IMG/VR virus record: IMGVR_UViG_3300048839_001082
Location: 1 to 64,000 of that record
DNA from: a virus
Length of the DNA: 64,000 nt
Direction: 5' to 3' (one strand)
The notes under the pieces are model-generated. The model was not told the DNA's origin, ran no database searches, and was given only the letters and a program-made list of their open reading frames with translations. This document shows, piece by piece, positions 1-53,324 of the stretch (position 1 is its first letter; each line of letters opens with the position of its first letter). A program made the position numbers and the translations under genes.

Positions 1-263
1 CCTTCATTATCATTAGGGGCTGTATCTTTAACTGCTCCTTTAATTGATTCCACATTTACTATCAATGCTCCTTCATTATCATTAGGGGCTGTATCTTTAA
101 CTGCTCCTTTAATTGATTCCACATTTACTATCAATGCTCCTTCATTATCATTAGGGGCTGTATCTTTAACTGCTCCTTTAATTGATTCCACATTTACTAT
201 CAATGCTCCTTCATTATCATTAGGGGCTGTATCTTTAACTGCTCCTTTAATTGATTCCACATT
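1..263 (+). repeat. Perfect 69-bp coding tandem repeat
   Basis: Copies start at 1, 70, 139 and 208. The last copy is truncated, diverging after base 263. All visible copies are base-for-base identical, third codon positions included. The 69-bp period equals 23 codons, so copy number can change without breaking the frame. The array continues beyond the left edge of the window. Confidence 0.97.
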
Positions 264-843
264 CCAAATATTTACAAGTACGTTGACTATGCAAGGAGTG
301 ATTGTTGTATCTTTCTTAACAACAACATCGGTAATTTATCCTCCAGTTTTTATTAGCGATCAGCTGATAACGACGAGTTTCTTGGAAAGTACTTTTAGTG
401 TAATTAGCCCTAAGCTCAATCTGAATGTTGTCACACCCACACTGGGTAGTAACTTTATTGCATTTACACCTGCACTAAATACGACAAATTCAATCACAAG
501 CGCTTTCATTGACTCCGTTTTCCAAGTTTTTAATGCGGGCGTAGTGCCGGGCGCAGTTGCTATAGCAGCACCTGTATTGCCGAGTTCGAATGCTTTCTAT
601 GTACCCAATCTTTCATTAGAAGCAAGTTCATTATCAGCGGCTTATATCGGAATTTCAGGTGCTATTTATGCACCGTCATTGAGTGGAGGCGCTGCTGCAA
701 TTCTCACCACATTAGATATCGAACGTATAGTTGATGCTTTGCTGTTAAGGTTAAATTTGGATATTATCCCGGTGAATGTCAAGAAAATGAACGATGCTTT
801 TGTTCAAGGCGATGGTACAATCAACAATAAATGGAGGGGTTGA
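1..843 (+). CDS. Repeat-rich structural protein, C-terminal part (start is outside the window)
   Basis: The frame is open from base 1 to the TGA at 841-843, so the gene begins upstream and only its last 280 codons are seen. The first part is a perfect tandem repeat of a 23-residue unit (PSLSLGAVSLTAPLIDSTF followed by TINA). The rest, about residues 90-230 of the visible part, keeps degenerate echoes of the same pattern of Ser/Thr/Ala-Pro and hydrophobic residues, as expected for a beta-solenoid or fibrous fold. The last 40 residues are non-repetitive and charged. It lies directly upstream of the portal gene, so a head-associated fibre or decoration role is possible, but that is inference from position. 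I do not recognise the family. An in-frame ATG at 283 lies after the repeats, but because the frame is open through the repeats I treat it as internal. Confidence 0.75.
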   Translation, partial: PSLSLGAVSLTAPLIDSTFTINAPSLSLGAVSLTAPLIDSTFTINAPSLSLGAVSLTAPLIDSTFTINAPSLSLGAVSLTAPLIDSTFQIFTSTLTMQGVIVVSFLTTTSVIYPPVFISDQLITTSFLESTFSVISPKLNLNVVTPTLGSNFIAFTPALNTTNSITSAFIDSVFQVFNAGVVPGAVAIAAPVLPSSNAFYVPNLSLEASSLSAAYIGISGAIYAPSLSGGAAAILTTLDIERIVDALLLRLNLDIIPVNVKKMNDAFVQGDGTINNKWRG

Positions 844-1015: not shown

Positions 1016-2662
1016 ATGGCTGTCGTGAACGCCTCCCGTGGAGCGAAGACAGTCGCTGATCCGAACGCTAAATATGAATCATTAATGCGAGATTGGCTGG
1101 TATCTCGCGCAATGTGTAGTGGTGAACAATTTGTTAAAGCTTATGATAGTGTCATCGACAATGTGAGTTTTAACAATTTGTTAATTCCATTTTCACCGTC
1201 GATGAGCTCTTTGCAGTATAATTTTTATCGTGCTGAAGCGGAATTGCCTGGAATAACGGCTGAATTTTCAAAAATGATCGTTAGTGGTTTATTGAGAAAG
1301 CCACCAACGATCACGCTTCCACCATCAGTACCTAAAGAAGCTGCTGATTGGATTAAATATACCTTTAATCAAGATAACACTTCTATTGAATCTTTTTTAG
1401 GAACCGGGCTGTGGGAAGAAATTCAAACCAGCAGAGCATGGGTATATGTTGACTACCCTCATGTTATAAATCCTGAAGACTTGACACCAGATGAAAAGAA
1501 AGAATTAAAACCTTATCCAGTCCTTTGGCCCACAGAAACAGTAATAAATTGGAAAATGGGGTTTGACGATTTAGGTAAGCAAGTTCTTAAACAAGTAATT
1601 GTTAGAGGATTTACCGAAGAGTATGGCGATAACGAATTTCACCCTTCAAATATTGAAACTATTAAGGTGCATGAACTCGATGAAAAAGGTGAATATCGAA
1701 TTCGTGTATTTAAAGCTAAAGCAGATGTCGGTGATTTAAAGTTCGTGAATGGGCAGCAGGTGAAAGATATGAAAACCAAGCCTGCTTTTGAGCATGTTGA
1801 AACATTAGATAAAATTTTAGTTAACAGTGAGCGCTTGAAATTTATTCCGGCTTGGCCTCTTAATGGGCAAGTAGAGCCATCTCCGCCCATGCTCAATGCG
1901 GTGATTAACAAAGAAATTGCACTTTATAATAAAATCAGTCGACGTAACCACTTGTTATATGGTGCCGCGACTTATACGCCGGTGATCATTGCGGATATGT
2001 CTGATGAGGATTTTGAAGAAATTGTCAATAGTGGTTTAGGCACTTGGATTAAACTACCCGCTGGCAGTTCAGCTGAAATTCTTCAAACACCGACTGAAGC
2101 GTTAGCAGATATGGACAGAGCAATTATGTCCAGTATTGAAGAGATGGCAAAGCTCGGCATTCGAATGTTGACACCTGAAGCTGATCAATCCGGTATTGCT
2201 TTAGAGATTCGGAATGCTGCTCAAACTGCCAGACTTGGCACATTAAGTTCAAAAGTCTCTAGCGTGATGCAGCAAATAATTGCCTTCATGTTAGAATGGC
2301 GTTATGGCATTGTTGTGAAAGCTTCTGAAGTTGTGTTTAAATTATCTGAAGACTTTAATGCTACACCGTTCGGAGCTGATTGGATGCGATTGGCCACTGA
2401 GTGGTATCAACAAGGTCTTATTCCCAGATCTATTTGGGTACAAATGCTTAAGCAAAACGATATGTTGCCTTCCGATTATGATGATAAGGAAGGTCAGAAA
2501 GAGATTGACGAAGAGCAACTGATTGACAGACAAGCAGAAAATGATGATTTTGCTGATAGAGCAAAGTTAGAGTACAAATTGCTTGAAGAAGCTCCTGAAG
2601 TTGCTTTTGAAAAACGTAAGGAAGTGCCTGTTTCGAATAAAAAGAAACAAGCTGATTCGTAA
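1016..2662 (+). CDS. Portal protein (DUF4055-like)
   Basis: The 548-residue protein has the length and look of siphovirus portal proteins of the DUF4055 type. It starts MAVVNASRGAKTVAD and has the typical early stretch about a sample of residues that traverse the capsid vertex, then a helical central part (IMSSIEEMAKLGIRML, residues about 365-380) and an acidic/lysine-rich tail. The portal forms the dodecameric ring at one capsid vertex that passes DNA during packaging and ejection and anchors minor head proteins. AAGG at 1007-1010 precedes the ATG with 5 bases spacing. The gene is followed by a small head gene and then a MuF-domain gene, the usual portal-MuF-scaffold-capsid order, which supports the call. 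Confidence 0.85.
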   Translation: MAVVNASRGAKTVADPNAKYESLMRDWLVSRAMCSGEQFVKAYDSVIDNVSFNNLLIPFSPSMSSLQYNFYRAEAELPGITAEFSKMIVSGLLRKPPTITLPPSVPKEAADWIKYTFNQDNTSIESFLGTGLWEEIQTSRAWVYVDYPHVINPEDLTPDEKKELKPYPVLWPTETVINWKMGFDDLGKQVLKQVIVRGFTEEYGDNEFHPSNIETIKVHELDEKGEYRIRVFKAKADVGDLKFVNGQQVKDMKTKPAFEHVETLDKILVNSERLKFIPAWPLNGQVEPSPPMLNAVINKEIALYNKISRRNHLLYGAATYTPVIIADMSDEDFEEIVNSGLGTWIKLPAGSSAEILQTPTEALADMDRAIMSSIEEMAKLGIRMLTPEADQSGIALEIRNAAQTARLGTLSSKVSSVMQQIIAFMLEWRYGIVVKASEVVFKLSEDFNATPFGADWMRLATEWYQQGLIPRSIWVQMLKQNDMLPSDYDDKEGQKEIDEEQLIDRQAENDDFADRAKLEYKLLEEAPEVAFEKRKEVPVSNKKKQADS

Positions 2663-3185: not shown

Positions 3186-3207
3186 AAAGGCCCTTCGGGG
3201 CCTTTTT
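3186..3207 (+). terminator. Rho-independent terminator with TTCG tetraloop
   Basis: AAAGGCCC (3186-3193), loop TTCG, GGGCCTTT (3198-3205) and a run of T ending at 3207 make a textbook intrinsic terminator. It ends only 3 bases before the ATG of the MuF-polymerase gene, so it both stops portal-unit transcription and occupies the place where a ribosome binding site would be. Confidence 0.9.
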
Positions 3208-3210
3208 ATT

Positions 3211-6200
3211 ATGACTAATGTTAACACAAAAATCTACGACAAGGCGATAGATCGTGCCGCAATGGTGAGACTGTATGAGCGTAGAGTGAATAGCAAAGTC
3301 GCTAAAGATCTCGATGATCATATTGTTCGTTTAGATAGTCTGATTAGAAAGACAGATAAGCTTAATAACCCTGCCTTAATGGATGGAATTGACCTTGAAC
3401 TTTTAAACACTTATAAAAATACCTTAAACACAACTAAAAGATCTCTTTTAGATTTATTCACTGATCAAGTATCATATGCCTACCAAAATATTGAAGTGGC
3501 CATGGGTCATATTTGGGAAACTGAAAGACCTCATACACGATTAGCTGAAGATGTTGTTTTAAAGAGATCTCTAGTGGGTGACAAGACATTGGCCGGAAGT
3601 TGGGCGGGTGTTAGTTATAATGAAAGACTTCGATTACAAGCTATAATTCGTAAAGGTATTGCAGAAGGTGAAACCGTCGATAAGATTGCCCTTGCCATTA
3701 GAAAAGGCAATCTACATCGAATCACACGTTCACAATCTAGAGCATTAGTCGTGACTTCAATAACTAGTGTGGCTTCTCAAGCAGACCAGGCTGTTTACTT
3801 AGCGAATGAAAAGGCAATTCGTGGTTATCAATACGTGGCTGTGTTGGATAGTAGAACCACGTTACTTTGTTCTCATCGTGACGGTAAAATCTTTCCTGTT
3901 GAAGACACTGTTCACTTGCCTCCGGCGCATATAAACTGCAGATCAACCACTGTTCCTGTAATGGCATCTTGGGAAGATCTCGCTAAATTGGAAGGCGTGG
4001 CTCAAGTTAGACGTAAGAATATTGAAAAATTGAGTAAGCGACAAATTGCATATTATGATGGCCTTACACCGCTTAAAGAAAGTTATAATGACTGGCTGCT
4101 TAGGCAGCCTAAAGAGGTACAATTACGTCATTTGGGTGATTATAAGCGTGTTGAGCTTTTTAATACTGGTGAGCTCACCGTGGATAAGTTTTCCAATGCT
4201 GAGGGTAACTCCGTAGGTATTCGCGAATTAAGAGCAATTACTGAAGCAGGTTATACAATACCTGGTGACACTAAACGATTTGCGGCTGCTAAAGCACAAT
4301 TAGATTCAATGCAATTAGGTGCTTCAAAACCTGAAGATTTCTTTATTGATAAAAAGTTAGTGAAAACACTTGAAGATTATTATGTGCTTCAATCTAAAGA
4401 GCTCGGTGGTACTTTATCATTAACTAATTATCGTGGCGCTTTGATTCATACCAAAAAGAGCATGAAATCTCGTGTGCTCACTTCTCCACCTAGAGAGGAT
4501 CAACTCAAATTTAACCCGATTACTGGAAGATATGAAGATGTTCGATTGTATCAACCCAATCCTGGCGTATTAGCTAATAATCTTAAACTTGTTGAAGAAA
4601 GCGATGTTCTTCTAGCGAAAGACAAAGAATTCTTATTGCAATTTTCAGACTCTCTAAAAGATCGTATGAGTGTGAATGAGCGAGCTGTGGTAGTTGACAA
4701 TTTAAGAATTTTGTTTACTCGTTATCGGAATAATAAAGAAATTTGGGGTAATTTCAAAGCTGTATCTCAGGCTCAGATTAAGTTTGATGTGATGAACGTA
4801 TCTGACGCAATAGAAACACAGATTAGGAAAGATTCAGATATTCTTAAGAAATTGCTTCAAGATAATTATATTGATCCGGTTTTAGGTCCCACTCAACTTG
4901 AGGAGTTACAAGCCACCTTTCTCAGTAACATTCGAGAAAGAAATCTTTGGGAAGATAGAGTTGCACCAGGAATTGCAAAGAAACTTCGTTCAACCTTTGA
5001 TCTTACTATTGCTAAGAAAGTGCCCACTGTCTGGGGCAGACTTTCTGATAGAGAACTGCAGCAATTTTATCTCAAGTTTGCCCATAGACTCAGCCTCGCA
5101 GACTCTCCAGACAGAGATCAATTCGCAGTTCAACTAGGTAGAGATCTTTATAATTTAGCTAATTATAATGGTGATCGTAGAAAGTGGTATGAACTTGGAA
5201 TGGCGATTTTAGAAACCAAGAAGGTTCATCGTTTCTTCGAGATTGAAACATTCGGTGTTCAAAAGCGTCGGATGAAAAGTCGAATGAGCGGCAATTATTT
5301 TGGACCCTATTACGATACTGTTGCTTACAATATCAGAGTGACCGACCCAAAAATACAAAGATATTCTCAATTAACTCGTAAGATCGATGTTGGCCTCAGA
5401 GTGGCTGTGATTGATCCTAAGAATCGTCTTGTGGTTAGAGAAGGTTATAAGACATACTTTATTGATCGTGGTTTACTTGGTTATGAAGATACTCGAATCC
5501 CTATTACTTCAACACACAGTTTTAGTGATTTCCCGGAAGAAATGGTGGATAAGAGTCTAGTCGATGCACTAAATTGGGCCGGTAAAACTGAGTATAAAAT
5601 CGATGAGGACTATCATGATTTTATCAGAAAGTTGTTATATTTTGAAGATGACAAAGGGAAGGCCAAATATTATAATGAGCTTAATGAGTATCGAAAGTTT
5701 ATTGCAGCTAGAGGCGATTCTTATGAACGATTCAAAGCAATGGAATGGCTTCGAAATTCAGGAAAGTCATTTAGCAACCATCCTTTCATCGATCACAGAG
5801 CCCGTATATATGATCGTGGAATGATCTCTCCACAATCCGGTGAAACCTTTCGACCTTTCTTAAATACCACTGAACCTAAGATTTTAGGAATTGATGGATA
5901 TGAAAATCTACAAGACCAAATAGGATCCTTTTTGGGTGGTTTGAACGATCGACTTGAAGGCAGGTTTAATTCGCTGACAGTGACAGGTAGACAAAAAATA
6001 GCTCAAAAGTGGAAAGCTGATTTAGTGAAAATCGGCAATCACATGTTAAGAGGGAAGCCTGGAGATATACGTGCAATACTCGAGTCGGAAATTACGAAAG
6101 ATATAGATGGTGAAGATATCGGAAAATTTTACAGATTCGCTATTGAGCAAGCCAAGCTCGATAATTATTTGGGCGGTGACTATTCTATCCGTAATCTTAA

Positions 6201-7887
6201 TAAGCTTAACAATTATCGCACTTCTCTTGCCTTAGAGCAAGATGCTTCTTCTTCAGGCGCTCAAATAATCGCAATTACAACACGTAATAAACAATTGGCG
6301 GAACTAAGCAATGTCATCCCAACAACTCAAAAGAAACGATTGTACGACGAAATTGCTGCTGCCACTTTCAATGATCCCCGGTTTAAAAATCTCAATAAGA
6401 AATTGGGACTATCGGAGAAGGATCTTCGAAAAGCGGCGAAAGCTCAAAATATGGTTACATTCTACGGAGCAGGCGAACGCACCGGAATCTTAAATGTTGA
6501 AGGGAAGTTGAGCAAAGTCCTTGGAAAAGATACAAATACTTTAGTAGTCAAGGCAGCGGATCGAGATACAGTACTCAACGAAATTTCAGCTCAAATTGCA
6601 AGATATGAGAAGTTTGATCTTGATACTGCAGAAGAGCTTCGATTACTAAGGAATAACGTTAAAGATATCTTTAACAAAGGACTTGATCCTGGTGATGATA
6701 TTCTTGAACAACTCTATTTCTTGCAACCACAAACACGTGAACTTGTTGAGAGAATGTCAACGAATTATGAACGAGTGGTAACCCCTGATGATTTTAAACA
6801 AGTCGCGAAAATCATGAGTGAGCATCTCGCGGAACAAGTGCCCATTCTCAAAGAATTCACTAAGTTTTATGGTAGATTGGCTGAAGACTTTTTAAAGAAT
6901 TCAAAACCATCTAAGAGCGATTTCGATTGGGAAAGTATTGCTAAAACAAGCATTCGAGGCTCTAAGTCTAAAGGTTATGTTTTGCCTGATGTGGTAAGTC
7001 GTATTTTAGGTATAAAAGCTAGAGAGCCTGTATCTGAAAAAGTTTTGAGACGTTTTGGTTTTTGGAAACCTGACGGAACATTAAGTGAAATTCTCTATGG
7101 GGTCCCTTCTCCCGAAGATCGTAGAACAGGCGCCAAATTTATGAAACTTGAGATACTAACACCTACACTTCCGACTCCAGAAAATCTATTGAAAGGTAAA
7201 TTTTTATCTGAGCAAAAAATATCAGGTGTTGAGGTCTTCTATGCTAATAAATTGCCTAAAAGCTGGACAAACGTTCCTTCTGCTAATTTTGATGGAAAAA
7301 TTATAGAACAAAATTTCACTCAAACTTTTGAAGAGCGTTTATTCTATAAAAATCCTGACGGTACTTGGACAACGAACATTCTACAAGTTCTTCAAAAGAC
7401 TTCTTCTAATTGGTGGGAAGAAGCAGCAAATAAAATAGGTAAGATAAATGATATTGCGGATGCTACTAAAGCTAGAACAGCTTTTGGTGTTAACGCTAAT
7501 CATTCCAATGATGCTGTATTGGTGAAGAAATTTCATTTGTGGGGTAAGCGTGAAGGTGTTCCAACTTCCACGATTCATGACGCTTTCTTCGCGAATGCAG
7601 CTGATATGCTTAAAGCTAGAAAGGCTTTACGTACAATCTATGCTGAAGCTTTAAAGAATAATGTTATCAAACTTACATTAGATGAGATGTTAGCTAGAGG
7701 ACTTCCCAGACATCTTTATGATCAATATCTAAAAGAAGCCATAGATTCTGGTCTGATCCCTGTAGAAGGTATTTCCAAGATCAATGGAAGAACAATGAAA
7801 AAGAATGATATTCTCAATGAAGATGATATTTTGAAACCCGTTCCTGACGGTTTTAAAACGGACTATAGCTGGTATGGAGTTGGCTGA
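3211..7887 (+). CDS. MuF minor capsid protein fused to a single-subunit (N4 vRNAP/T7-like) RNA polymerase
   Basis: The N-terminal part (residues about 60-260) is a MuF/SPP1 gp7-type minor head domain: VLDSRTTLLCSHRDGKIF, then LPPAHINCRSTTVPV with C220, H240 and C243. The C-terminal half carries the full single-subunit RNA polymerase set. The DxxGR-like motif is D861-H-R-A-R865. Motif A is EQDASSSGAQ with D1011. Motif B is R1073, K1077, Y1085 and G1086 in the exact T7 spacing (R-x3-K-x7-YG). Motif C is STIHDAF with H1456 and D1457, preceded by a NHSND block like the T7 palm. The spacing between B and C (380 residues) is longer than in T7. The middle (about 280-800) is unassigned. MuF proteins sit on the portal inside the head, so I infer a packaged, ejected polymerase for early transcription. 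At 1,558 residues it is far longer than a plain MuF protein. No Shine-Dalgarno is seen; a terminator abuts the start. Confidence 0.85.
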   Translation: MTNVNTKIYDKAIDRAAMVRLYERRVNSKVAKDLDDHIVRLDSLIRKTDKLNNPALMDGIDLELLNTYKNTLNTTKRSLLDLFTDQVSYAYQNIEVAMGHIWETERPHTRLAEDVVLKRSLVGDKTLAGSWAGVSYNERLRLQAIIRKGIAEGETVDKIALAIRKGNLHRITRSQSRALVVTSITSVASQADQAVYLANEKAIRGYQYVAVLDSRTTLLCSHRDGKIFPVEDTVHLPPAHINCRSTTVPVMASWEDLAKLEGVAQVRRKNIEKLSKRQIAYYDGLTPLKESYNDWLLRQPKEVQLRHLGDYKRVELFNTGELTVDKFSNAEGNSVGIRELRAITEAGYTIPGDTKRFAAAKAQLDSMQLGASKPEDFFIDKKLVKTLEDYYVLQSKELGGTLSLTNYRGALIHTKKSMKSRVLTSPPREDQLKFNPITGRYEDVRLYQPNPGVLANNLKLVEESDVLLAKDKEFLLQFSDSLKDRMSVNERAVVVDNLRILFTRYRNNKEIWGNFKAVSQAQIKFDVMNVSDAIETQIRKDSDILKKLLQDNYIDPVLGPTQLEELQATFLSNIRERNLWEDRVAPGIAKKLRSTFDLTIAKKVPTVWGRLSDRELQQFYLKFAHRLSLADSPDRDQFAVQLGRDLYNLANYNGDRRKWYELGMAILETKKVHRFFEIETFGVQKRRMKSRMSGNYFGPYYDTVAYNIRVTDPKIQRYSQLTRKIDVGLRVAVIDPKNRLVVREGYKTYFIDRGLLGYEDTRIPITSTHSFSDFPEEMVDKSLVDALNWAGKTEYKIDEDYHDFIRKLLYFEDDKGKAKYYNELNEYRKFIAARGDSYERFKAMEWLRNSGKSFSNHPFIDHRARIYDRGMISPQSGETFRPFLNTTEPKILGIDGYENLQDQIGSFLGGLNDRLEGRFNSLTVTGRQKIAQKWKADLVKIGNHMLRGKPGDIRAILESEITKDIDGEDIGKFYRFAIEQAKLDNYLGGDYSIRNLNKLNNYRTSLALEQDASSSGAQIIAITTRNKQLAELSNVIPTTQKKRLYDEIAAATFNDPRFKNLNKKLGLSEKDLRKAAKAQNMVTFYGAGERTGILNVEGKLSKVLGKDTNTLVVKAADRDTVLNEISAQIARYEKFDLDTAEELRLLRNNVKDIFNKGLDPGDDILEQLYFLQPQTRELVERMSTNYERVVTPDDFKQVAKIMSEHLAEQVPILKEFTKFYGRLAEDFLKNSKPSKSDFDWESIAKTSIRGSKSKGYVLPDVVSRILGIKAREPVSEKVLRRFGFWKPDGTLSEILYGVPSPEDRRTGAKFMKLEILTPTLPTPENLLKGKFLSEQKISGVEVFYANKLPKSWTNVPSANFDGKIIEQNFTQTFEERLFYKNPDGTWTTNILQVLQKTSSNWWEEAANKIGKINDIADATKARTAFGVNANHSNDAVLVKKFHLWGKREGVPTSTIHDAFFANAADMLKARKALRTIYAEALKNNVIKLTLDEMLARGLPRHLYDQYLKEAIDSGLIPVEGISKINGRTMKKNDILNEDDILKPVPDGFKTDYSWYGVG

Positions 7888-7893
7888 ATAAAG

Positions 7894-7908
7894 CTGTTAT
7901 ATTAACCC
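7894..7908 (+). promoter_or_regulatory. Intergenic motif CTGTTNNNTWAACCC, copy 1 (candidate phage promoter)
   Basis: CTGTTATATTAACCC lies in the 99-base gap before the scaffold and capsid genes. The surrounding 20-mer AAAGCTGTTATATTAACCCA matches the copy at 32550-32569 at 19 of 20 bases. A hairpin AAGGGT-TGT-ACCCTT (7945-7959) follows in the leader. Promoter function is inference from position and recurrence. Confidence 0.5.
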
Positions 7909-7986
7909 AGATGACCTATTTCAAAAGTCATTTGAAATTTTAACAAGGGTTGTACCCTTAAATGAGTAGTACTCAAAGGATTGAAA

Positions 7987-8652
7987 ATGCCTGATCAGAA
8001 TAAAGACGACACGTCTGAGATTGAAAACAAGGAAGAGCATAAAGAAGACAAACAGGAAACGGTTGTACCGCCTGACGTCGAAGAAATTGTTCAAAAGAAG
8101 ATTGCGGAAGCTCTCAAACCCATTAAATCTAATTTAGATAAAGCATATCAAGCAAGAGATGCTGCTTTAGACAAAATTAAGGAGTTTGAGAAAAAACAAA
8201 GAGAAGAAGAGCTCTTGAAACTTCAAGAAGCTGGAAAGCATAAAGAAGCTTTTGAATTACAACTTGCCGAAGAAAAAAGACTAAGAGAAGCCGCCGAAGC
8301 AAAAGCTGTCGAGTTGACACGAGACATGACGCTTAAAGGCGAATTGGGCGCTCTAAAATTTAGAAACAACAATGCTATGGAAATGGCATTCAGAGAGATC
8401 GTCCCACAATTGGTTAAAGATGCAAACGGTAATTGGGTGCATCGCTCCGGTATTAGTATTCAAGACTTCGTGCAAGGCTTCGCTGATAATCAAGACAATA
8501 CTTTCTTGTTTACTCAACGTGTCTCTACAGGATCAGGTTCAGGACCCGTAGCTCCTTCACCCGGTAGCAAAGGTGACAAGTCACTTTTTGAACTATCGCA
8601 GGAAGAAGTTTTAAAATTAGCTAGAGAAGGAAAACTTCCGAGGCGTAGATAA
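7987..8652 (+). CDS. Capsid scaffolding protein
   Basis: The 221-residue protein is highly charged and mostly coiled coil (about residues 30-115, rich in E/K/A heptads such as EEIVQKKIAEALKPIK). It has a Gly/Ser/Pro linker (GSGSGPVAPSPGSKG) and a short basic C-terminal helix ending KLPRRR that could dock to the capsid protein. This matches phage scaffolds encoded directly before the major capsid gene. Scaffolds direct capsid assembly and are then lost. I chose the ATG at 7987 because AAAGGA lies 6 bases upstream; the TTG two codons earlier would overlap that site. Confidence 0.82.
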   Translation: MPDQNKDDTSEIENKEEHKEDKQETVVPPDVEEIVQKKIAEALKPIKSNLDKAYQARDAALDKIKEFEKKQREEELLKLQEAGKHKEAFELQLAEEKRLREAAEAKAVELTRDMTLKGELGALKFRNNNAMEMAFREIVPQLVKDANGNWVHRSGISIQDFVQGFADNQDNTFLFTQRVSTGSGSGPVAPSPGSKGDKSLFELSQEEVLKLAREGKLPRRR

Positions 8653-8663
8653 CTAGGAACATA

Positions 8664-9905
8664 ATGGGCGTTAAGACTAACCTTGCCGGTGCTACTAATA
8701 CTAGCAACCCCGGCGAACATAACTTTGTTTTACAAGAGGCCATTACTGGATATAGTGATGAAGCTTATACGACAGCTAAAAAGTTGTCTGGTACGGGCAT
8801 TGTCGGTTCTAATCCGAATATTGATACTTCGACGGAAACGTTCATTGGTCAAGTTCGTTGGTTCAAGCCGATGGATCATGTCGTGAACGTTGCTTCTCTG
8901 ACTGATTCGTCAGAAGGCGATTATGCGACGTATAGCTCCGACTATCTGCGTTACGTCAAGACTGTTCGTACGCACGGTGGCAAGAAGATCAATCTGCAAC
9001 AAGTCGTGACTCAACAAGACGGTCTGGCGAAGATCGGGCGTGATTTCGCTGAGACACGCGCCCAAGATGAGCATAATGCCATTTTGGCAGTTCTGCGCGG
9101 CGTGGCTTTGGCTGAACTTTTGAATGGCTGTGCAGCGGCATCTGGTGCTACAGGTCTTGGTGGCCAAACTTTCACCAATGATCCTGAAGACAAGAAGTAT
9201 GGCTTTTATGTCGATCTTGGTGCTGAGAAGTTGATTTCATTACCTGGAACGACACCCGCCGGTGTGGCAAACGCCGCTTACGTCGGCGCTCAACGCGCAG
9301 AAGGTTTCCTGAAGGCTTTCGGTATGGCTTATAAAGACTATGAGCCGGAATGGGCATATTTAGTTGTTTCACCTGAAGTCAAGGCTTCGTTACGTTCAGC
9401 GAATTTGGTTGATAGTGACGGTGTCGTTGAAGCCAATGTCAAGTTTGATACGATTTTCGGCGGCAAATTCAGACTTATCCAGACGCGCGCTTCACAAGGC
9501 TTCTCCGGTGCTGAAATTGATAAGATTCAGACTGGTGCGGGCACTGCTGAACTGACTGACGGCTCGAAGACGTCTTTCATTGTGTTGCCGGGTGCGCTTG
9601 CGATGCAGCAACTCGCTATTCCCGAGCCGACTGAAATTGAACGTAAAGCTGGAGCCTTTAAAGGCGGTGGCACCACGGCCATTTGGCATCGTTGGGGTTA
9701 TGTGCTTGCGCCTGTTGGCTATGATTGGATTGGCAGTGATGCTGCTTTTCCGAGCAATGCAAACTATTACGATGTTGTCGAAGGTGGCACTCAAAAGGCT
9801 CTTGCTTCTGTCGGTTCCGGCACACTTGCGGCCACTACGGGTGTTTGGTCACGTAAGACCAAGTCAGCACTCAGCCTGGGCATTCTTCCGGTCTTTCACG
9901 CTTAA
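8664..9905 (+). CDS. Major capsid protein
   Basis: The 413-residue product follows the scaffold gene by 11 bases, the standard place for the major capsid protein. It has GC-richer, strongly biased codons unlike the AT-rich genes around it, as expected for the most abundant virion protein. AGGAA precedes the ATG by about 6 bases. The sequence is rich in Gly/Ala/Thr with few Cys and shows the mixed alpha/beta texture of HK97-fold capsid proteins (for example VNVASLTDSSEGDYATYSSD and the late EPEWAYLVVSPEVKA). There is no protease domain or separate protease gene nearby, so maturation cleavage is not evident. Confidence 0.85.
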   Translation: MGVKTNLAGATNTSNPGEHNFVLQEAITGYSDEAYTTAKKLSGTGIVGSNPNIDTSTETFIGQVRWFKPMDHVVNVASLTDSSEGDYATYSSDYLRYVKTVRTHGGKKINLQQVVTQQDGLAKIGRDFAETRAQDEHNAILAVLRGVALAELLNGCAAASGATGLGGQTFTNDPEDKKYGFYVDLGAEKLISLPGTTPAGVANAAYVGAQRAEGFLKAFGMAYKDYEPEWAYLVVSPEVKASLRSANLVDSDGVVEANVKFDTIFGGKFRLIQTRASQGFSGAEIDKIQTGAGTAELTDGSKTSFIVLPGALAMQQLAIPEPTEIERKAGAFKGGGTTAIWHRWGYVLAPVGYDWIGSDAAFPSNANYYDVVEGGTQKALASVGSGTLAATTGVWSRKTKSALSLGILPVFHA

Positions 9906-13068: not shown

Positions 13069-16000
13069 ATGTCTGGCATTCGAATAGACGTAGATGCAAA
13101 GACTTCACAATCGGAGAAGGATCTTAAAAGGATTAATGAGTCTTTACGAAATATTGAAAAGACCACAAATAGTGCATCTAGAGCCCTTTCAAATACATTT
13201 AAGGGAATAAGCACCACAATAATCTCCGGCGGAGCTTTTTTAGCGCTGAAGAATATATCTTCAGAATTCACAAATTTAAGTAATAAAATTGCGCTTGTTA
13301 CAGGCAGAACTGAGAGTTTAATAGTCTCTCAAAGAAAACTCTATCAGATTGCAGAAGACACTCGTTCTTCACTCACTGGTACAGTGGACGTATTTTCAAG
13401 TTTTGGGAGATCTCTAAAGAGTACCGGGATCTCTACTGAAAATATTTTAAAAACTACTAAGACAGTACAACAAGCAATTGCATTATCAGGTTCAAATGCA
13501 GTTGCAGCTTCAAATGCGATTATTCAATTGGGGCAAGGTCTTTCCGCGGGTGCTTTGCGCGGTGAAGAATTGAACTCAGTTATGGAGCAAGCGCCACGTC
13601 TTGCTCAAGCTATCGCTGATGAATTAGGCGTTACAACAGGTAAAATGCGTTTGTTGGCTGCGGAAGGCAAACTGGCCACTGATGTTGTTTTCACCGCATT
13701 GTTGAAACAAGCTGCGCAAATTAATAAAGAATTTAAGGTACTTGCGCCTACGATGGAGCAGTCTACGAGTTTCTTAGTAAGCTCGATGAAGTTTTACGTA
13801 AATGAATTGGATAAAGGTTTAAACCTTTCCGCTTTCCTGTCCGCTAAAATGTTTGAAGTGGGAAAGGGTATAAAGGCAGCTTCTAACAATGCTCTTGAGT
13901 TAGGTGCTAATCTTGCAGCAAGTTACCACACTGTCTTAAAGAATATCAGAGCTATCGGCGGTCCTTTATTAGTGTCTTTGTCAGAGCTTGGTAAACAATT
14001 CGCGAATGTCATTCCGAAGTTGCATTTAACAAAGACTTTGAAAGGTGATATTAATGAAGCAATTCGCATATTTGATGATAAACTATTAGGTGGATTCATT
14101 AATAGCTTTAAGAAATTTAAATTTGTAAATGTATTCAGTATTCGAAGTGATGTTGAAAAGGCAATTACAGAGCTTAAACGACTGAGTCCGAAGTATTGGG
14201 CGGCGAGCGGCTGGGATATCCCTACATTTAAGAAATTCTTTAGTAAGGAGAACTTAAGCAAATACCAAGTCGCCTTTGGAAACCTTGCGAAAGCGATTAC
14301 CGGGAATACTAATTCAATAAGTTCAACAATTACCAATTTAGCAAAGACCGCAGACTATGGTTTTAAAGCGCTTTCAAGATACTTTGGATTTAGACCCGAT
14401 ACTCTAATTGCATTTACTGGTGGACAAATAGATACATTCTTAATGACGTTGTCTGAAGTGACCAGAGGCTTTTCAGGAATAACTGTAAAGATTTGGGAAT
14501 TTAATCGTCTAGTTATCGATAACTTTTTACCAGGTGTACATGCACTTGGTTTAGCTTTAGCAGATGTTTTTAAAGAATTACCAAATATTATTTGGAAAGC
14601 ATTAAAGAGTGTTACAATTGGATTTGTTTCTTTTATTAGAAACTTTACTCAAGTCTTGAAGGAATTGGTATTCACTGATTTTGAAGTTAATTTTAAGCAA
14701 ATCTTTGAAAGTGCTTTAGATGCTTTTAATAATTTTGTTGATGATCTTTCCGATAAAGATATATTTGAAAACATTTACAAAAATATAAAGAGCTTTGGAA
14801 TACGAGTTATAAATGTCTTTAAAGATATTTATGACAAAGTTATTGGAAACTCTTGGTGGACAGATACTATTGAAGCCATAATCGATACTAGTCATTCTTT
14901 ATGGGATAAAGCAAGTTCAGGGCTTAACGATTTCGGACGAAATACTATTAATCTATTTAAAGATATTTTTAATCAAAATAGACGATTGAAGTTTAGCATT
15001 CCTTCATTTAAACTGACATTTGATAAATTTCCCAGAATAGAGATAAATAGTATAACAGACGCTTTTGAAAGTGCTTCAATTAGGGTAAAACAATTCTTTA
15101 GTGATCTTTTTGATAGTTTTCCTTCTATTGCTAAAATGGCGTTTGTTGCCGCTGCGGGTGTTCTTGTATTTGCATTATTTCCACCTGGCATCATAAAGAC
15201 TGCGCTTTTAGCCGCTATTGTCACTAGTCTTGCCACAAGTGCGACAGTGATTGGAGAAGCATTTGGTGCATCATTGACTGGTGGCAGCTTTGTTTATGAT
15301 ATGGGTTATAAGCTAGGTAAAGTGGCTGGTTTGTTTGTGGCTACTGTTATAAGAGAATTTCCTAAGGTTGTAAATGTTTTTGGTGGAGCCATTTCAGCTT
15401 TCTTTCGAGGGATTATAGAAGAACTCCCTATATTGAACACCGCTATTAAAGGTGTTTTTAGTGTTTTTGACACGGTTGGTTTAGCAGGACCTCTGGGAAT
15501 ATTTGGAACTATCTTCTTTGGTAAGAAGCTTGGATTCTTCGATGCTTTGAAAAAAGTCTCTGTAGTCGGCCCTGCCTTAAAGTTCTTTGGACTGATTGAA
15601 ACGAAGAAAGGTAAGAAAGACAAGAGCGGCGATAAAGATGGCTCAATATGGACATCTTTATTTGGAACATTCGGTGCTGTACGAACAGTTTCTGCACTTA
15701 CTTTAATAACGAGCCAATTAGGCGGTTTTGATTCCATTTTCGCTGAATCTAAATGGATGAAGGCTGCATTAGATGTTGGTTTGTTATACTTGTCTTTGTT
15801 CGGTGATAAAGGTCTTGATAACTTGCAAGCAATCCTCTTCAAAACAGTCATTAAGCCCGTTAGAGAAATGTTTAGAACATTAAAAGGTGACTCTTTTATT
15901 GCAAATGGTATTTTTGATGTAATTTTCGGAGATAAAGGCGGCTGGATCGAACGTGCCAGCAGTTTTATGAAAGGTGTTTTTACCGCTATTGGTGAAAATG

Positions 16001-19000
16001 TTGCAAATATTGCTGCACCGCGAATTAAACAAGGTTATGAATTTCTTAAGATATTGTTATTAGGAAAAGATCCTTCAAAGACTATTGAAAGTATAAAGAA
16101 TGTGGCAAGATTGGCCATGTTTAATGTGCAAGATACAATTGCCAAGATCGGATCTGTCTTTAAGTTTTCTGGCCCTTTGATGCCGCGCGGTGCTAGTAAA
16201 TACGCTGCTCAATATCAAGACCTGATGTCTCAGACATTCGGGAAAACGGCTGCTGTCTTGGAAGCAGAAACAAAAAGAACTGCTGAAAAGATCACAAAGA
16301 TAGGTGGTGAGACTGGATTGATGGGCCGTGCGTTTCTCGGCAAACACGGTACAAAAATACTCGTTGGAAGCATTTTGGCAGCATTTGCAGCAATGGCAAT
16401 TGCCAGTCAAGATGCTGAAGCTAAAATAAGAACTCCATTAGACGATACTATCGACATTCTAAGAGATTTGAAAGTTCCAAATCCTTTTAAAGAATTTGCA
16501 TTAGAAACTACAGCTGTTATTCTTCCGTTACTATTTGGTGCACTTGTTTTATTTAGACAAAATGTCACTAATCTATTTAACAAATGGAGCGGAGCACTTG
16601 TTGCGGAAAGTGCCGCTAAAGGGATTTTAGGAAGAATTGCAAACTCTTCACTTGCATTCAAGAGAGTTGGTGCAACAATTGGTGCTGCTGTAGTGGCTGG
16701 CTTTGTTGGTTATGGATTATCAGATGGCAATGCAATGATGGCATTATATGCCGCAGATGCTGCTGGTACTTTAGCCTTTGTGTTTAAAGATCAATTAGCA
16801 AAATTATTCACTGTAAGCGCCTTTGCCAAGATTATTGCAATGATAGGAGGATTGATATCTTTCTTATTGAATCCTTGGGTTTGGATACCGGCAGCTGCAT
16901 TGACGGCAGGTGGTCTTTTAGGAATCTGGTTATTTGGTAAAGAAGGTGAATTCTTTAATGATCTTGATAAAGCAAAAGACAAAATACTTCAATTAATAAG
17001 TTTTGGGTATTTGGGAAAGCAACCTGAACTTGGGCCACGAAGTCTCAGCAAAAATTCAGAACAATTTTTAACGAAGCAAAATATTGATTTAGGCTTTGAT
17101 CTCGATGACATTAACTTTGAGAAAGTATCTTCTAAGGATAGAGAGCTTCTTAACGAGAGTATTAGAAATCTTGAAACTGCTATCGTTGACGCTATTAAAG
17201 AAGATAAGCAAGAAGGACGTATTGACTTTCCTACATATGACCGTATTAAAGCGATGGATAGAAAGATCGCTAATATGGCAACAAATTTGCGCATTAGCTC
17301 CAGTCAGAATGATGTTCCATTCTCGGAAGTCTTAAAGCAAAGCGCATACATACAACCAGAAGGCAGACTTGGTTTAAAGCTTAGTGAGTTGAAGAAATTC
17401 GGTGCTGAGCTTGCGTATAGTATCAATGTCGGTCTAACAAAGTTTTCAAGGTACGGTGCAAAACCTGAAGACAAACTAAGATACACTGAGCGTCTTGATG
17501 AGCTTAAAGCAGAACAAAATCGCAGATACAATCCTAATTTCCGCTTCAGAACAGACGCTGCCACCAAAGAACTTTTAGATCTCGCTAAGAATGCTGAAGA
17601 CTCTGTAGTATTCACTAATGAAGCAATAGAAACTGCTTTAGGTGAAGCTCGTATAAAATTAGAAAGAATTGATGCATTAGTGCGTGAGCAAGAAACTACC
17701 ATGTTTGGTAGTTATAAACCTTTAGAAATGACCGGAAGACAAGGCGAGTACAATCAGACTTTATTGAATGGTTTTAACAGTGCCAGAGATGAAGCACTGC
17801 AACGCGTCAGAGAAAAGTTAGCTTTCGATAGAGAAGAAAAGGCTATAAGAAAATTTAATAAACAGCTTAATGAAGTCGAAACCGTTGCTAAGAATATATT
17901 AAAGCTTGAGTTTGATGTTGAGGATATATTTGCATTTGATCAACACAGCTTCAACAATATGGTCAGAATAACGACTGAAGTTGATGCATTGGGCAAGGCA
18001 CTTATTAAGACATCAGATATTGCCAGTAGAAATGCAATAATTTTAAAGATTAAAGAACAACGTGATCAATTTGTATATGAGCAATCTGAAGCAAGACTTG
18101 CGGAACCTGTTTATAATCAATCCAGATTGCCTGAGTTCATGTCGGAAGCAGGCATGCAAATGTCACCCGAATTTGCGAATTCACTCAGTGACTTTAATGC
18201 AGGAATTATTGCAAAGATAGCTACAGACTTATCAAATAAAATAAAGAAAAGCAAGTTAAAAGTTCCGGGCAGTCCGGAGTATACAGTTCTTGCGGAAGAA
18301 ATTAGAGCTGACCAAGACGCGAATGCAAGGTTCATTGCTGATTTGGCTAAATCCAATCAAGAGACCTTTTTCTATGTAAAAGATCTTGCGGGTAAATATG
18401 AAGTAGACTTCCCTGGGCTAATGAAGAAATACGGACTTTCCGGGGCAAAGACTTTATTATCGAAATTGGCGGATAAAGAACAAGCACGTAGTGATGCCAT
18501 TGCCAAGGGTGATATAGGTATTCTACCTGGAATTGATAACGATATTGCCAGATTTAAAGAAACACTTGCTGAAATTCCTTTGGATGTGCAAACAATGCTT
18601 TCGACGATTGGAAATGTCGGCGTTTCGATTGACATCAATGATTTGTTTAATGCGCCTGAGCTTTTAGCAACACTTACAGAAGTTGCTAATAGACTAAGAG
18701 AAATTGATAAAGATTTTAAATTTAAAGGACCGACCCTTACTTCCGAAGGCCTTGATTCAATATTGATTCGTCAACAAGCTCAACAGAGAGCGGCTTTTGC
18801 GTCTTCTTTAAAGACGATTGACAATACACCTCAAAAATTGGGGACTTTGCTTTCAAATTACGGAGCGGATACTTCTAAAGATATTTCGGCATTAACAGAA
18901 AGCACTCGTAATTATATTGTGGAACTTGAGCGTGTTAAAACCACTATTGAATTTTTGAGAAAGTCTAGACAAAGCCCTGCAGATACCGAAGCACTTTTTC

Positions 19001-39594: not shown

Positions 39595-42351
39595 TTGAAA
39601 TCGAGAGTAGTGGCTTCATTGACTCGGAGAATTACCACTGAAGCTGTTCTGCAAGCTCAGTTACGATTCTTAAAAGAGCATGATGTGAACTCTTATGTAA
39701 ATACTGTAATTTCTACATTATACTTGTACACAAGACCTAAAAAGGGTTACGAAACAACTTCTGTTTACATGGCTGAATTGATTTCTGCCTTGGGTCATGG
39801 TGTGCGAACAAAACTTAAGCTCAAAAGAGACTCCAATGCCGCTGCTAAACTAGGTGCATTTTTATTATATACATTCGAAGAACTTGGTTATATAAAAGTG
39901 ATATTGGGTGTGGGAACGAGACACGCCACTTATATCGTGACTGTAACCAATGACAATGCAATAGTATCGATGTGGAGTGCGATGGAAGCTTCTCATATTG
40001 AGAAATTACCGTCCGGAACTCCATATGCTCCTTGGACCAGCACAAAACATAATGCTGGAATTCGAATGGTGAAGACTAATGATAAAGGAGTACTTGATAA
40101 AATCGCTCCTGAAACTCATCCAATTTTATTCAATGTACTTAACAAAGCTCAAGCCGTCGGTTGGAGAATTCATAAAGAGATTTACGACCTTCATGCATGG
40201 GCGCTAAGGAATAAAACGGATGCATTTGCCGATATTTGGGAACAACAAAATCCCGAAGCGAAGGCTACGAAAATAAGAGAAGTTAAAGCCATCGGCGAAA
40301 TGGCAAAGAAGTTTCTTAACAGTCCAATATATCATCTCTATTATTATGATTTTCGTGGTAGGAAATACACGAATACAGCTTATTTACATGAACAGGGTAA
40401 TGATCTGGCCAGAGCTTTACTCCAAAGAATTGACGAGAAGAAAATAGGCAGAGCAGGTTATTGGTGGATGCTGGTATCAATTGCGTCAAATTGGGGTGGT
40501 GATTCTGGCAGACTTGATGGACTAAAAACTGATAAGATTCCCCTTCAAGAACGTTATTTATGGGCGTTAGATAATGAAGATATTTTATTGGCATATGCTG
40601 AAAAGCCTAAGGTACATCAAGGTTGGATGAAGGCTGACAAACCTTGGCAGTTTCTCGCAGGATGCATTGAGCTAAAAAGACTCAGAGAATGGCAGTATCA
40701 ATACGGCAGTGTTAAAAACCCATTTGAAGATTATAATTATGAATCTCACATGGAAGCCTACATTGATGGTAGCAATAATGGTTCTCAACATCTGGCTGCT
40801 TTGACGCTGGATGAAGTCACGGCGCCTCACGTAAATTTGGTTCCGTTAGAACTTCCAGGAGATCTCTATTCTTATGTGGCCGGACATGTATGGGACCATC
40901 TGCATGAGCTCTTGAAAGATTATCCAGAAGAAGAACGTGAAGACTGTGAAATCTTTATCGATAACTTGATAGAATTGAAGAAGAAGATAACTGCGGCCGA
41001 GCCTAAAAGCGATGTGAGAAGAGAATTAATAGCTTCGATTCAAACTTTTAAAGAGGCTAATCAATATATTCTAGATAAATCTGCCGCGGTGTATTGGTAC
41101 AGGATCGAAGATAATAAGCACAAAAGAAAGATCGTGAAGAGAAACGCGATGACAATTCCGTTGTAAAGGCGGAAGTAAAAGAGGGTGAATTCAGTGGACA
41201 TCCATTCGCTGTGGACAATACTGAGCCGAGCCGTTTAAACGGAAGGTGCAACGACTATCATGTAGGGCAGAAGTCTGCTCGAAGCCCCCTCCACTCCTTG
41301 AGTGATGATATAGTCTGGTCTGCATAGTAATATGCAGCTGTATTAAGCAATTGGTATGAATATGAATTGGAACGAAATCTTTATCTACAACGCAGATGGC
41401 AGTTTAACGAGGCGTTATTCAAATAATCAGCATAATACTGTTGGCTGGATAAATAGTTCAGGTTACAGAGGTGTTGTTAGAACTAAAAATAATAAATTTC
41501 AAGCACGTTTAACGCTAGAAGGTAAAAAGCTTTACTTAGGCTTGTTCGATACGCCCAAGGAAGCTTTTGATTGTGTTGAAACTACACGTAAAGAGTTGTA
41601 CGGCGAATTTGCAACTCTTAGATAAATTGCTTAATACGGGTGAAGATTAACGAACTTCATTGAACACAACGATGGTGGAACAAGTTATGGAATGGGGCAG
41701 CAGATAATTGATGATTCTAGAAAACACGGTATTGACCAGTTACTCTATTTAGAACATAAATGGGGTGCCTTCTTGGGTAGAGCCGTCTTTAATGATTGTC
41801 GATTATCTTTAAAACGCCCTATGAAGCTGTTATCAATTTTTGAAGAAGCCGGAAAGAAAGCCGAGAAACAAGGTAGATTTCTGTCTTGGACAGTGCCTAT
41901 AACAAATTTCCCAGTAGTTCAACACTACACAGAAGGTGTGGTGAAGAAGGTCTGGTGTCAATATGGTCCTCCTAGGGGTCCTCGACTCAGTACAAATTAC
42001 TTCGAAAACACTTACCAAATTTCTATTTCTTTCATCGAAGAACGTGTGCCTTCCCGAAATAAACAATCTCAAGGTGCGAGTCCCAATGCCATTCATAGCT
42101 TAGATGCAGCTCATTTGGCGTTGACCGTTGAAAGATGTGATTTCCCAGTAACTACCATTCATGATAGTTTCGGGTGTTTATTAGCTGACATGCCTGTTTT
42201 GTTCAGGACGGTTAGAGAGACTTTTGTTGAACTTTATAATGCCAATCCGTTAGAGCATTTAATGAAAGACTTAGGCTGCAATATCAATGATGTGGATAGA
42301 GGTACGCTAGATATTTCACTAATACTCGAATCTGAGTATGCATTTTCATAG
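39595..42351 (+). CDS. T7-like single-subunit DNA-dependent RNA polymerase, interrupted by a group I intron
   Basis: Joined from 39595-41161 and 41672-42351, the message encodes 748 residues, shorter than T7 RNA polymerase (883) mainly at the N-terminus. It uses a TTG start with AGGAG 5 bases upstream. Catalytic motifs are DFRGR (D252-R256), motif A YIDGSNNGSQHLAAL (D391), motif B R511/K515 with Y523-G524 restored by splicing (IPYGGTSYGMGQQ), and motif C TTIHDSFG late in exon 2, preceded by NAIHSLDAAH. It should transcribe phage middle or late genes from its own promoters. It is separate from, and only distantly like, the MuF-linked polymerase. Confidence 0.92.
41162..41671 (+). other. Group I intron in the RNA polymerase gene
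   Basis: The 510-base intron follows exon end CCGT (U at 41161) and ends with G at 41671. The guide GCGG at 41169-41172 pairs with CCGU including the U-G wobble; the pairing extends to 6 bp (UUCCGU with GCGGAA). Core blocks GACAATACTGAGCC (41214-41227), GGAAGGTGCAACGACTAT (from 41241) and GATATAGTC (41307-41315) match the second intron. Splicing restores a tyrosine codon T|AT at the catalytic motif B. Confidence 0.9.
41356..41625 (+). CDS. Intron-encoded AP2-domain protein, minimal homing-endonuclease relative
   Basis: The 89-residue product has an N-terminal IFIYNADGSLTRR stretch like those at the start of HNH homing endonucleases, then directly an AP2 DNA-binding domain (YRGVVRTKNNKFQARLTLEG followed by KKLYLGLFDTPKEAFDC). 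The HNH nuclease core that usually lies between is missing, so it probably binds DNA without cutting, or is a decayed homing enzyme. It lies in the 3' part of the intron, downstream of the P7-like block. Confidence 0.72.
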   Translation: MNMNWNEIFIYNADGSLTRRYSNNQHNTVGWINSSGYRGVVRTKNNKFQARLTLEGKKLYLGLFDTPKEAFDCVETTRKELYGEFATLR

Positions 42352-50500: not shown

Positions 50501-50717
50501 AATTTTAGCCGCATTGTCGGTGTTATCCGCATTTTCCGCATTGCTTTACGGTAGTTTCATTTTGATATCTAAGACGGTCCCTTTGGAAAGTGTTGATTAT
50601 ATCTTACTAGGGATTACATTTATGATCGGAGGCAAGGTTTTTATCAGCTTCACTGAAACCTCCAAGGACAAATCCAGCGATGGGAACGATAGTAGCCAAG
50701 AACAGACCTTGCCTTGA
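50493..50717 (+). CDS. Small membrane protein, 74 aa
   Basis: Two transmembrane segments (ILAALSVLSAFSALLYGSFI and SVDYILLGITFMIGGKVFIS) are followed by a polar tail (DKSSDGNDSSQEQTLP). The coding end overlaps the primase-helicase start by 38 bases. No family is recognised. Confidence 0.6.
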   Translation: MSKILAALSVLSAFSALLYGSFILISKTVPLESVDYILLGITFMIGGKVFISFTETSKDKSSDGNDSSQEQTLP

Positions 50718-53316: not shown

Positions 53317-53324
53317 AAGGTATA

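Follow-up and report, generated by a model that had tools for sequence, protein, structure and literature searches.

The DNA stretch analyzed here, called the window below, comprises positions 1 to 64,000 of the 81,522-base virus record IMGVR_UViG_3300048839_001082. Its plus strand contains, at 3211–7887, a single open frame without internal stops, present in one copy in the record and encoding a protein of 1,558 amino acids, in which a MuF-type minor head domain is joined to a single-subunit RNA polymerase (RNAP) (Table 1). The gene order around it is portal, one small ORF, the fusion gene, scaffold and major head protein, followed by a head-tail adaptor, a major tail protein and a tape measure protein of 3,202 aa. 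Judged by this gene content, the late module is of the siphovirus type and the fusion occupies the slot usually taken by a MuF gene. The fusion was likewise located between portal and scaffold/capsid in the naomvirus DSS3_VP1, despite an identity of only about 29%. A terminator-like hairpin (3186–3205), which was not common to the relatives compared, ends right before the fusion start codon, and no obvious ribosome-binding site was seen there. The same 69-bp tandem repeat is present at both ends of the record (window positions 1–276; record positions 81396–81522), which suggests that the two copies form a terminal or circular array of repeats. Further downstream, the primase/helicase frame (50680–53316) includes an extra stretch of about 250 aa (residues 483–739) that matches PHROGs bearing the label terminase large subunit and may be a shared intein, and the ribonucleotide reductase gene (53313–56042) is split by a LAGLIDADG ORF at 54434–55060, probably marking another intron besides those described below.

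Table 1. Features of the fusion gene, its neighborhood and the stand-alone polymerase gene in the window.
Feature	Position	Strand	Basis or remark
Portal protein	1016..2662	+	PHROG 145 9.5e-61
MuF-RNAP fusion gene, proposed virion RNA polymerase	3211..7887	+	1,558 aa
MuF portal-binding (putative)/minor head domain, residues 1-347	3211..4251	+	PF04233, PHROG 241, conserved motif
Linker and region N-terminal to DxRxR, residues ~348-793	4252..5590	+	AF2 model of 401-1558; conserved (18 sequences)
Catalytic part of single-subunit RNAP	5591..7884	+	profiles, alignment, fold matches
D861-R865	5791-5805	+	fusion RNAP
Motif A D1011	6241-6243	+	fusion RNAP
Motif B 1073-1086	6427-6468	+	fusion RNAP
Motif C H1456-D1457	7576-7581	+	fusion RNAP
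Gap with two small hairpins, conserved in relatives	7888..7986	+	before scaffold gene
Hairpin 1 AAGGGT-TGT-ACCCTT	7945-7959	+	gap before scaffold gene
Hairpin 2 TGAGT-AGT-ACTCA	7963-7975	+	gap before scaffold gene
Scaffolding protein	7981..8652	+	PHROG 206 1.9e-5
Major head protein	8664..9905	+	PHROG 247 4.4e-16
Second T7-like RNAP, exon 1 (up to motif B)	39595..41161	+	PHROG 414 5.7e-62
Group I intron, motif-B tyrosine codon of second RNAP	41162..41671	+	RF00028 63.6 bits at 41141-41337
Second T7-like RNAP, exon 2 (motif C, C-terminus)	41672..42351	+	PHROG 414 2.1e-36

Residues 144–247 of the fusion matched the Pfam family MuF (PF04233) at 1.3e-12 and 48.9 bits, the curated cut-off being 29.6 bits, while residues 1–344 matched PHROG 241 (head morphogenesis) at 1.3e-55. 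The C-terminal ~750–1,150 residues represent a complete single-subunit enzyme, with matches to Pfam RNA_pol (PF00940; residues 995–1106; 4.3e-11), also exceeding its curated cut-off, and to the RNA polymerase family PHROG 414 (7.9e-22). The region between the two parts is largely helical and the RNAP module starts without a sharp boundary. Together with the predicted fold (see below), the Pfam and PHROG matches confirmed a preliminary description of this locus, made from the letters alone, according to which one 1,558-residue protein joins a MuF domain to a complete single-subunit RNAP.

Conservation was analyzed in 81 distinct sequences, i.e., the window protein and 80 relatives. Of the IMG/VR copies, 80 were fetched first, and nearly all of these were complete from MuF through the RNAP end. 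The MuF motif LD..T...C...G...PP.H..CRS was conserved across the relatives, and the C220/H240/C243 block pointed out in the preliminary description held throughout: C220 was kept in all 79 sequences with this position, and H240 and C243 in 81/81. In the polymerase part, D861, R863, R865 and Y867 (DxRxRxY in T7), D1011, S1013 and G1016 of motif A, and K1074, K1077, Y1085 and G1086 of motif B, the latter with T7 spacing, were invariant (81/81 each), and H1456-D1457 of motif C was unchanged in the 77 sequences covering the site. The first of these motifs reads DHRAR in the window and D-x-R-G-R in T7 and the naomvirus. The catalytic residues that had been listed beforehand were thereby verified with one exception: R1073, at the position of T7 R627, is not universal, being kept in 74/81 sequences and replaced by Q in three, K in two and A in two, next to the invariant K1074; the A replacement is that of the naomviruses, including DSS3_VP1. 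The median dN/dS was 0.05 for the MuF part, 0.06 for the linker and 0.06 for the RNAP part, i.e., synonymous changes greatly exceeded replacements. With the invariant residues and the many relatives, this marks a real, selected family.

The AlphaFold2 (AF2) model of residues 401–1558, built with 32 family sequences, had a mean pLDDT of 78 and a pTM of 0.75. The PDB fold matches shown were all to mitochondrial RNAP (POLRMT, 6.8e-17) and T7 RNAP (9.5e-17) with a probability of 1.00, with modest whole-chain TM-scores (0.33–0.41 for the query and 0.40–0.55 for the target) because large parts fall outside the shared core. In the model, D1011 follows the strand 1003–1009, motif B forms the helix 1069–1084 and H1456-D1457 lies in a turn between the strands 1453–1455 and 1458–1462, an arrangement of motifs A, B and C that agrees with the palm and fingers of T7 RNAP. 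The check by structure prediction that the preliminary description had proposed for the C-terminal half thus yielded a right-hand polymerase fold of the T7/POLRMT type. The assignment to a joint T7/N4 family made there could be upheld only for T7 (fold matches at ~1e-16): in the profile comparison (hhalign) T7 RNAP obtained a probability of 91% and N4 mini-vRNAP only 0.5%. The fusion was therefore not assigned to the N4 vRNAP family, as merely 26 columns were aligned with N4 residues 998–2103 in this comparison and the fold match was weaker. In the search against viral models, the nearest hit was a 1,463-aa protein with the same length as the naomvirus homolog, followed by stand-alone phage RNAPs, and the N4-type vRNAPs appeared only at ~1e-10. 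Since the closest relationship of the RNAP half is to the T7 and mitochondrial enzymes and N4 vRNAP is more distant, it is designated here as T7-type, not N4-vRNAP-type. A single-sequence phmmer search against the PDB found nothing significant; T7 RNAP was detected only with the family profile (3e-4). Foldseek found no significant match in the PDB for the MuF half, and portal binding therefore rests on sequence families only. Chance can be excluded because of the family-wide conservation, the dN/dS of about 0.06 and the predicted fold.

In IMG/VR, at least 563 stretches code for relatives. A search of 50,697 phage records with the RNAP half gave near-complete matches only in the two records of DSS3_VP1, in DSS3_PM1 and in EBPR siphovirus 1; MuF is present in each of these four, and a polymerase annotation in none of them. 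Thus, each of the three isolated or named relatives (naomviruses DSS3_VP1 and DSS3_PM1, and EBPR siphovirus 1) has the fusion, with full-length homologs identical to the window protein by ~29% in the naomviruses and by 60% in EBPR siphovirus 1, and the 1,558-aa architecture persists whole both in the IMG/VR relatives and at the naomvirus distance. The GenBank label of the naomvirus homologs is minor head or head morphogenesis only, and the deposit of DSS3_VP1 by its own authors labels the homolog as minor head protein-like. The nearest stand-alone RNAP belonged to the Alteromonas phage vB_AspP-H4/4 (25.8% identity over 35%), and the best MuF-only relatives, from the Pelagibacter phage Kolga (633 aa) and the cyanophage MED4-184 (761 aa), do not have the length needed for an RNAP. 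A search of 84,980 prokaryote genomes gave matches only in two contigs of one metagenome-assembled gammaproteobacterium. Since one of them equals the viral contig L039 in length, the match is ascribed to phage DNA binned with the bacterium and is weak evidence on the host.

Two peculiarities were seen in single groups of relatives. An in-frame insertion of ~235 aa is present after RNAP residue ~1106 in six of them (L075, L076, L078–L080 and L083); an intein nature of these insertions was rejected for lack of intein ends and of a Pfam match, and they are regarded here as an additional, unidentified domain. In relative L085, GDSL lipase and GH5 cellulase-like proteins (13177–14667 and 14671–16611; record positions 75176–78610) are encoded beside the terminase region and are possibly tail or host-surface enzymes.

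Group I introns and similar elements usually occupy conserved catalytic sites of essential enzymes. In four relatives (L071, L072, L073 and L081) the fusion gene is interrupted within motif B, after the first two bases (GT) of codon V1082, by a group I intron with an HNH ORF (RF00028, 66 to 89 bits). In another relative, L053, the group I intron lies next to motif C of the fusion. The fusion of EBPR siphovirus 1 is broken at the same V1082 site by an insertion carrying an HNH ORF (L002, 15171–16044), which remained below threshold in the Rfam search. Most likely, its gp47, gp48 and gp49 together make up a single MuF-RNAP gene with an intron-like insertion inside, and appear as three annotated genes because the gene is split at the group I intron site of the relatives. 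The second, stand-alone T7-like RNAP gene of the window, which adjoins the genes for SSB and DNA polymerase, is also interrupted by a group I intron, the boundaries of which were read from the sequence in comparison with uninterrupted relatives; a small ORF of 89 aa (41356–41625) is located within it. Relatives of the second RNAP were detected in all 17 long related records searched, including DSS3_VP1, where the match (E = 5e-71) is annotated as RNA polymerase. The introns at the catalytic motifs give indirect support for active polymerases in both cases. Neither the introns of the relatives nor the second RNAP gene nor the unrecognized fusion in GenBank phages had been noticed in the preliminary description.

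Motif discovery in the intergenic gaps revealed no convincing promoter, with log-likelihoods barely above those of shuffles; the best repeat, GTATCTTATATGA, occurs twice. N4-style hairpins with a 3-nt loop showed no genome-wide excess in the window (17 found versus 18 expected). The gap between the fusion and the scaffold gene contains two small hairpins (Table 1), and of 53 distinct gaps at this place, 46 held at least one hairpin and 26 held two, with 0.3 expected in shuffles. The stem of hairpin 1 is variable yet perfectly paired, with mostly TTGTA or CTGTG as the loop, while hairpin 2 is usually TGAG-TTGTA-CTCA and lies right before the ribosome-binding site (examples are at 14683–14720 in L008 and at 16436–16450 in the naomvirus record L003). 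Altogether 33 different, compensated stems were found. No other copy of this type of pair was found elsewhere in the window, and because of its confinement to the scaffold gap it seems to be an element, of unknown role, that controls the scaffold/capsid genes rather than an early promoter set.

What the computation established is the domain composition, the polymerase fold with intact catalytic motifs, the purifying selection on the gene and its position, and the presence of a second RNAP in the same genomes. The explanation that we regard as probable is a MuF-borne virion RNAP that enters the cell with the DNA and transcribes the first genes, whereby virion content, ejection, activity and promoters are inferred. 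The MuF part would bind the portal inside the procapsid and bring a few copies of the T7-type RNAP into the head. The polymerase would exit with the DNA through the tail and transcribe the first genes without waiting for the host RNAP, and these would include the second, free T7-like RNAP (39595–42351), which may then make the later transcripts. Packaging is inferred from SPP1 gp7, a MuF protein that the portal takes in few copies to the procapsid interior and that supports the start of infection (PMC6316719); MuF proteins with C-terminal toxins are also thought to be delivered (PMC5512222). Early transcription is inferred from N4, whose injected vRNAP makes the early RNA, including that for a second phage RNAP serving the middle genes (PMC4496689). 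As N4 uses its injected vRNAP and then a second phage RNAP, the same order is proposed for the window phage, the presence of two RNAPs suggesting, by analogy, a cascade of an injected and then a newly made enzyme. Tail passage, promoter choice and timing of the fusion RNAP remain inference. Several points speak against this explanation. A protein of 176 kDa would have to traverse the long tail of a siphophage, for which no counterparts of the N4 ejection partners gp51/gp52 were identified; R1073 (T7 R627) is replaced in 7/81 sequences; neither a repeated promoter motif nor a genome-wide excess of N4-style hairpins was found; and the MuF half had no fold match in the PDB.

The same missing early promoter set would fit a polymerase that is active and never delivered, either cut off from the MuF part or acting only late, on late genes or in assembly, with MuF merely anchoring it near the portal. 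The gene is part of the late module, and the conserved hairpin pair directly downstream, before the scaffold gene, points in the same direction. However, a late role requires no fusion to a head protein and a free RNAP is already available in the genome, while the retention of the full-length fusion down to ~29% identity and the reading of MuF fusions elsewhere as delivered effectors (PMC5512222) also speak against this explanation, which we consider unlikely. A polymerase that does enter with the DNA might also serve chiefly for pulling in the genome or for priming replication and not for early mRNA. T7-type enzymes are strong motors, which counts for the mechanical role. In N4, transcription by the vRNAP likewise serves to draw the genome into the cell (PMC4496689). 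Against it, the window genome has a separate primase-helicase, and DNA pulling and early-gene transcription do not exclude each other; such a restricted function is considered very unlikely. A loss of polymerase activity, with the RNAP half surviving only as a degenerate structural remnant, might be inferred from the non-universal R1073 and the weak similarity to T7 outside the motifs, but is hardly credible given the invariant catalytic residues, the dN/dS of 0.06, the introns in catalytic motifs and the complete fold.

The proposed virion RNAP combines properties of three known systems. With the T7 RNAP family (PF00940, PHROG 414) it shares the DxRxR, A, B and C motifs, their spacing and the fold, but T7 RNAP is a free early enzyme, while the gene of the fusion RNAP belongs to the late module and also specifies the head protein to which the enzyme is joined. 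With SPP1 gp7 and Mu gpF (PF04233, PHROG 241) it shares the N-terminal domain and the gene position after the portal. Similarly to N4 gp50, it is a single-subunit T7-type RNAP with a virion association (proposed here) in a phage that encodes a second T7-like RNAP (PMC4496689). In contrast, gp50 is a podoviral protein of ~3,500 aa without MuF, using its C-terminal part for encapsidation, whereas the fusion has 1,558 aa and a siphovirus-type gene order, and the second RNAP is a single chain in the window phage and a heterodimer in N4. Enzyme or toxin domains have been described at the C-terminus of other MuF proteins, the reported fusions including ART/VIP2, PBECR, RelA/SpoT, PRTase, zeta-toxin and similar domains, and no RNAP was found among the MuF fusions of these papers (PMC5512222, PMC7302621, PMC6316719). 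The survey of polyvalent proteins recorded N4-like vRNAP modules only in N4-like phages and many MuF fusions, none with an RNAP (PMC5512222). The earlier statement that no named description of a MuF-polymerase fusion was known agrees with the literature searched, in which none was found, but the naomvirus paper (Rihtman 2021), likeliest to mention it, was not covered. Both halves belong to known families and virion RNAPs are known as such; the architecture, the carrier and the phage type are new, although a prior description is not excluded.

Few phages are known to have an RNAP in the particle, i.e., the N4 group, the phiKZ-type jumbo phages and some crAss-like phages. We are inclined to believe, with some reservation, that a large undescribed long-tailed lineage, the Naomviridae together with hundreds of IMG/VR relatives, uses MuF to inject a T7-type RNAP and runs a two-polymerase, all-phage transcription programme from time zero, independent of the host RNAP and evolved apart from N4 and phiKZ. 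The DNA of DSS3_VP1 contains uracil (PMC12697855), which is one possible reason for bringing its own polymerase. If true, the injection of an RNAP by way of MuF would be a separate virion-RNAP solution in long-tailed phages with MuF at the portal as the packaging handle, and it would open to experiment the questions of how an enzyme of 176 kDa can get through the tail of a siphophage and whether injected enzymes are carried by MuF in general. The fusion is present in the isolates DSS3_VP1 and DSS3_PM1 (Ruegeria pomeroyi), which are accessible to such work.
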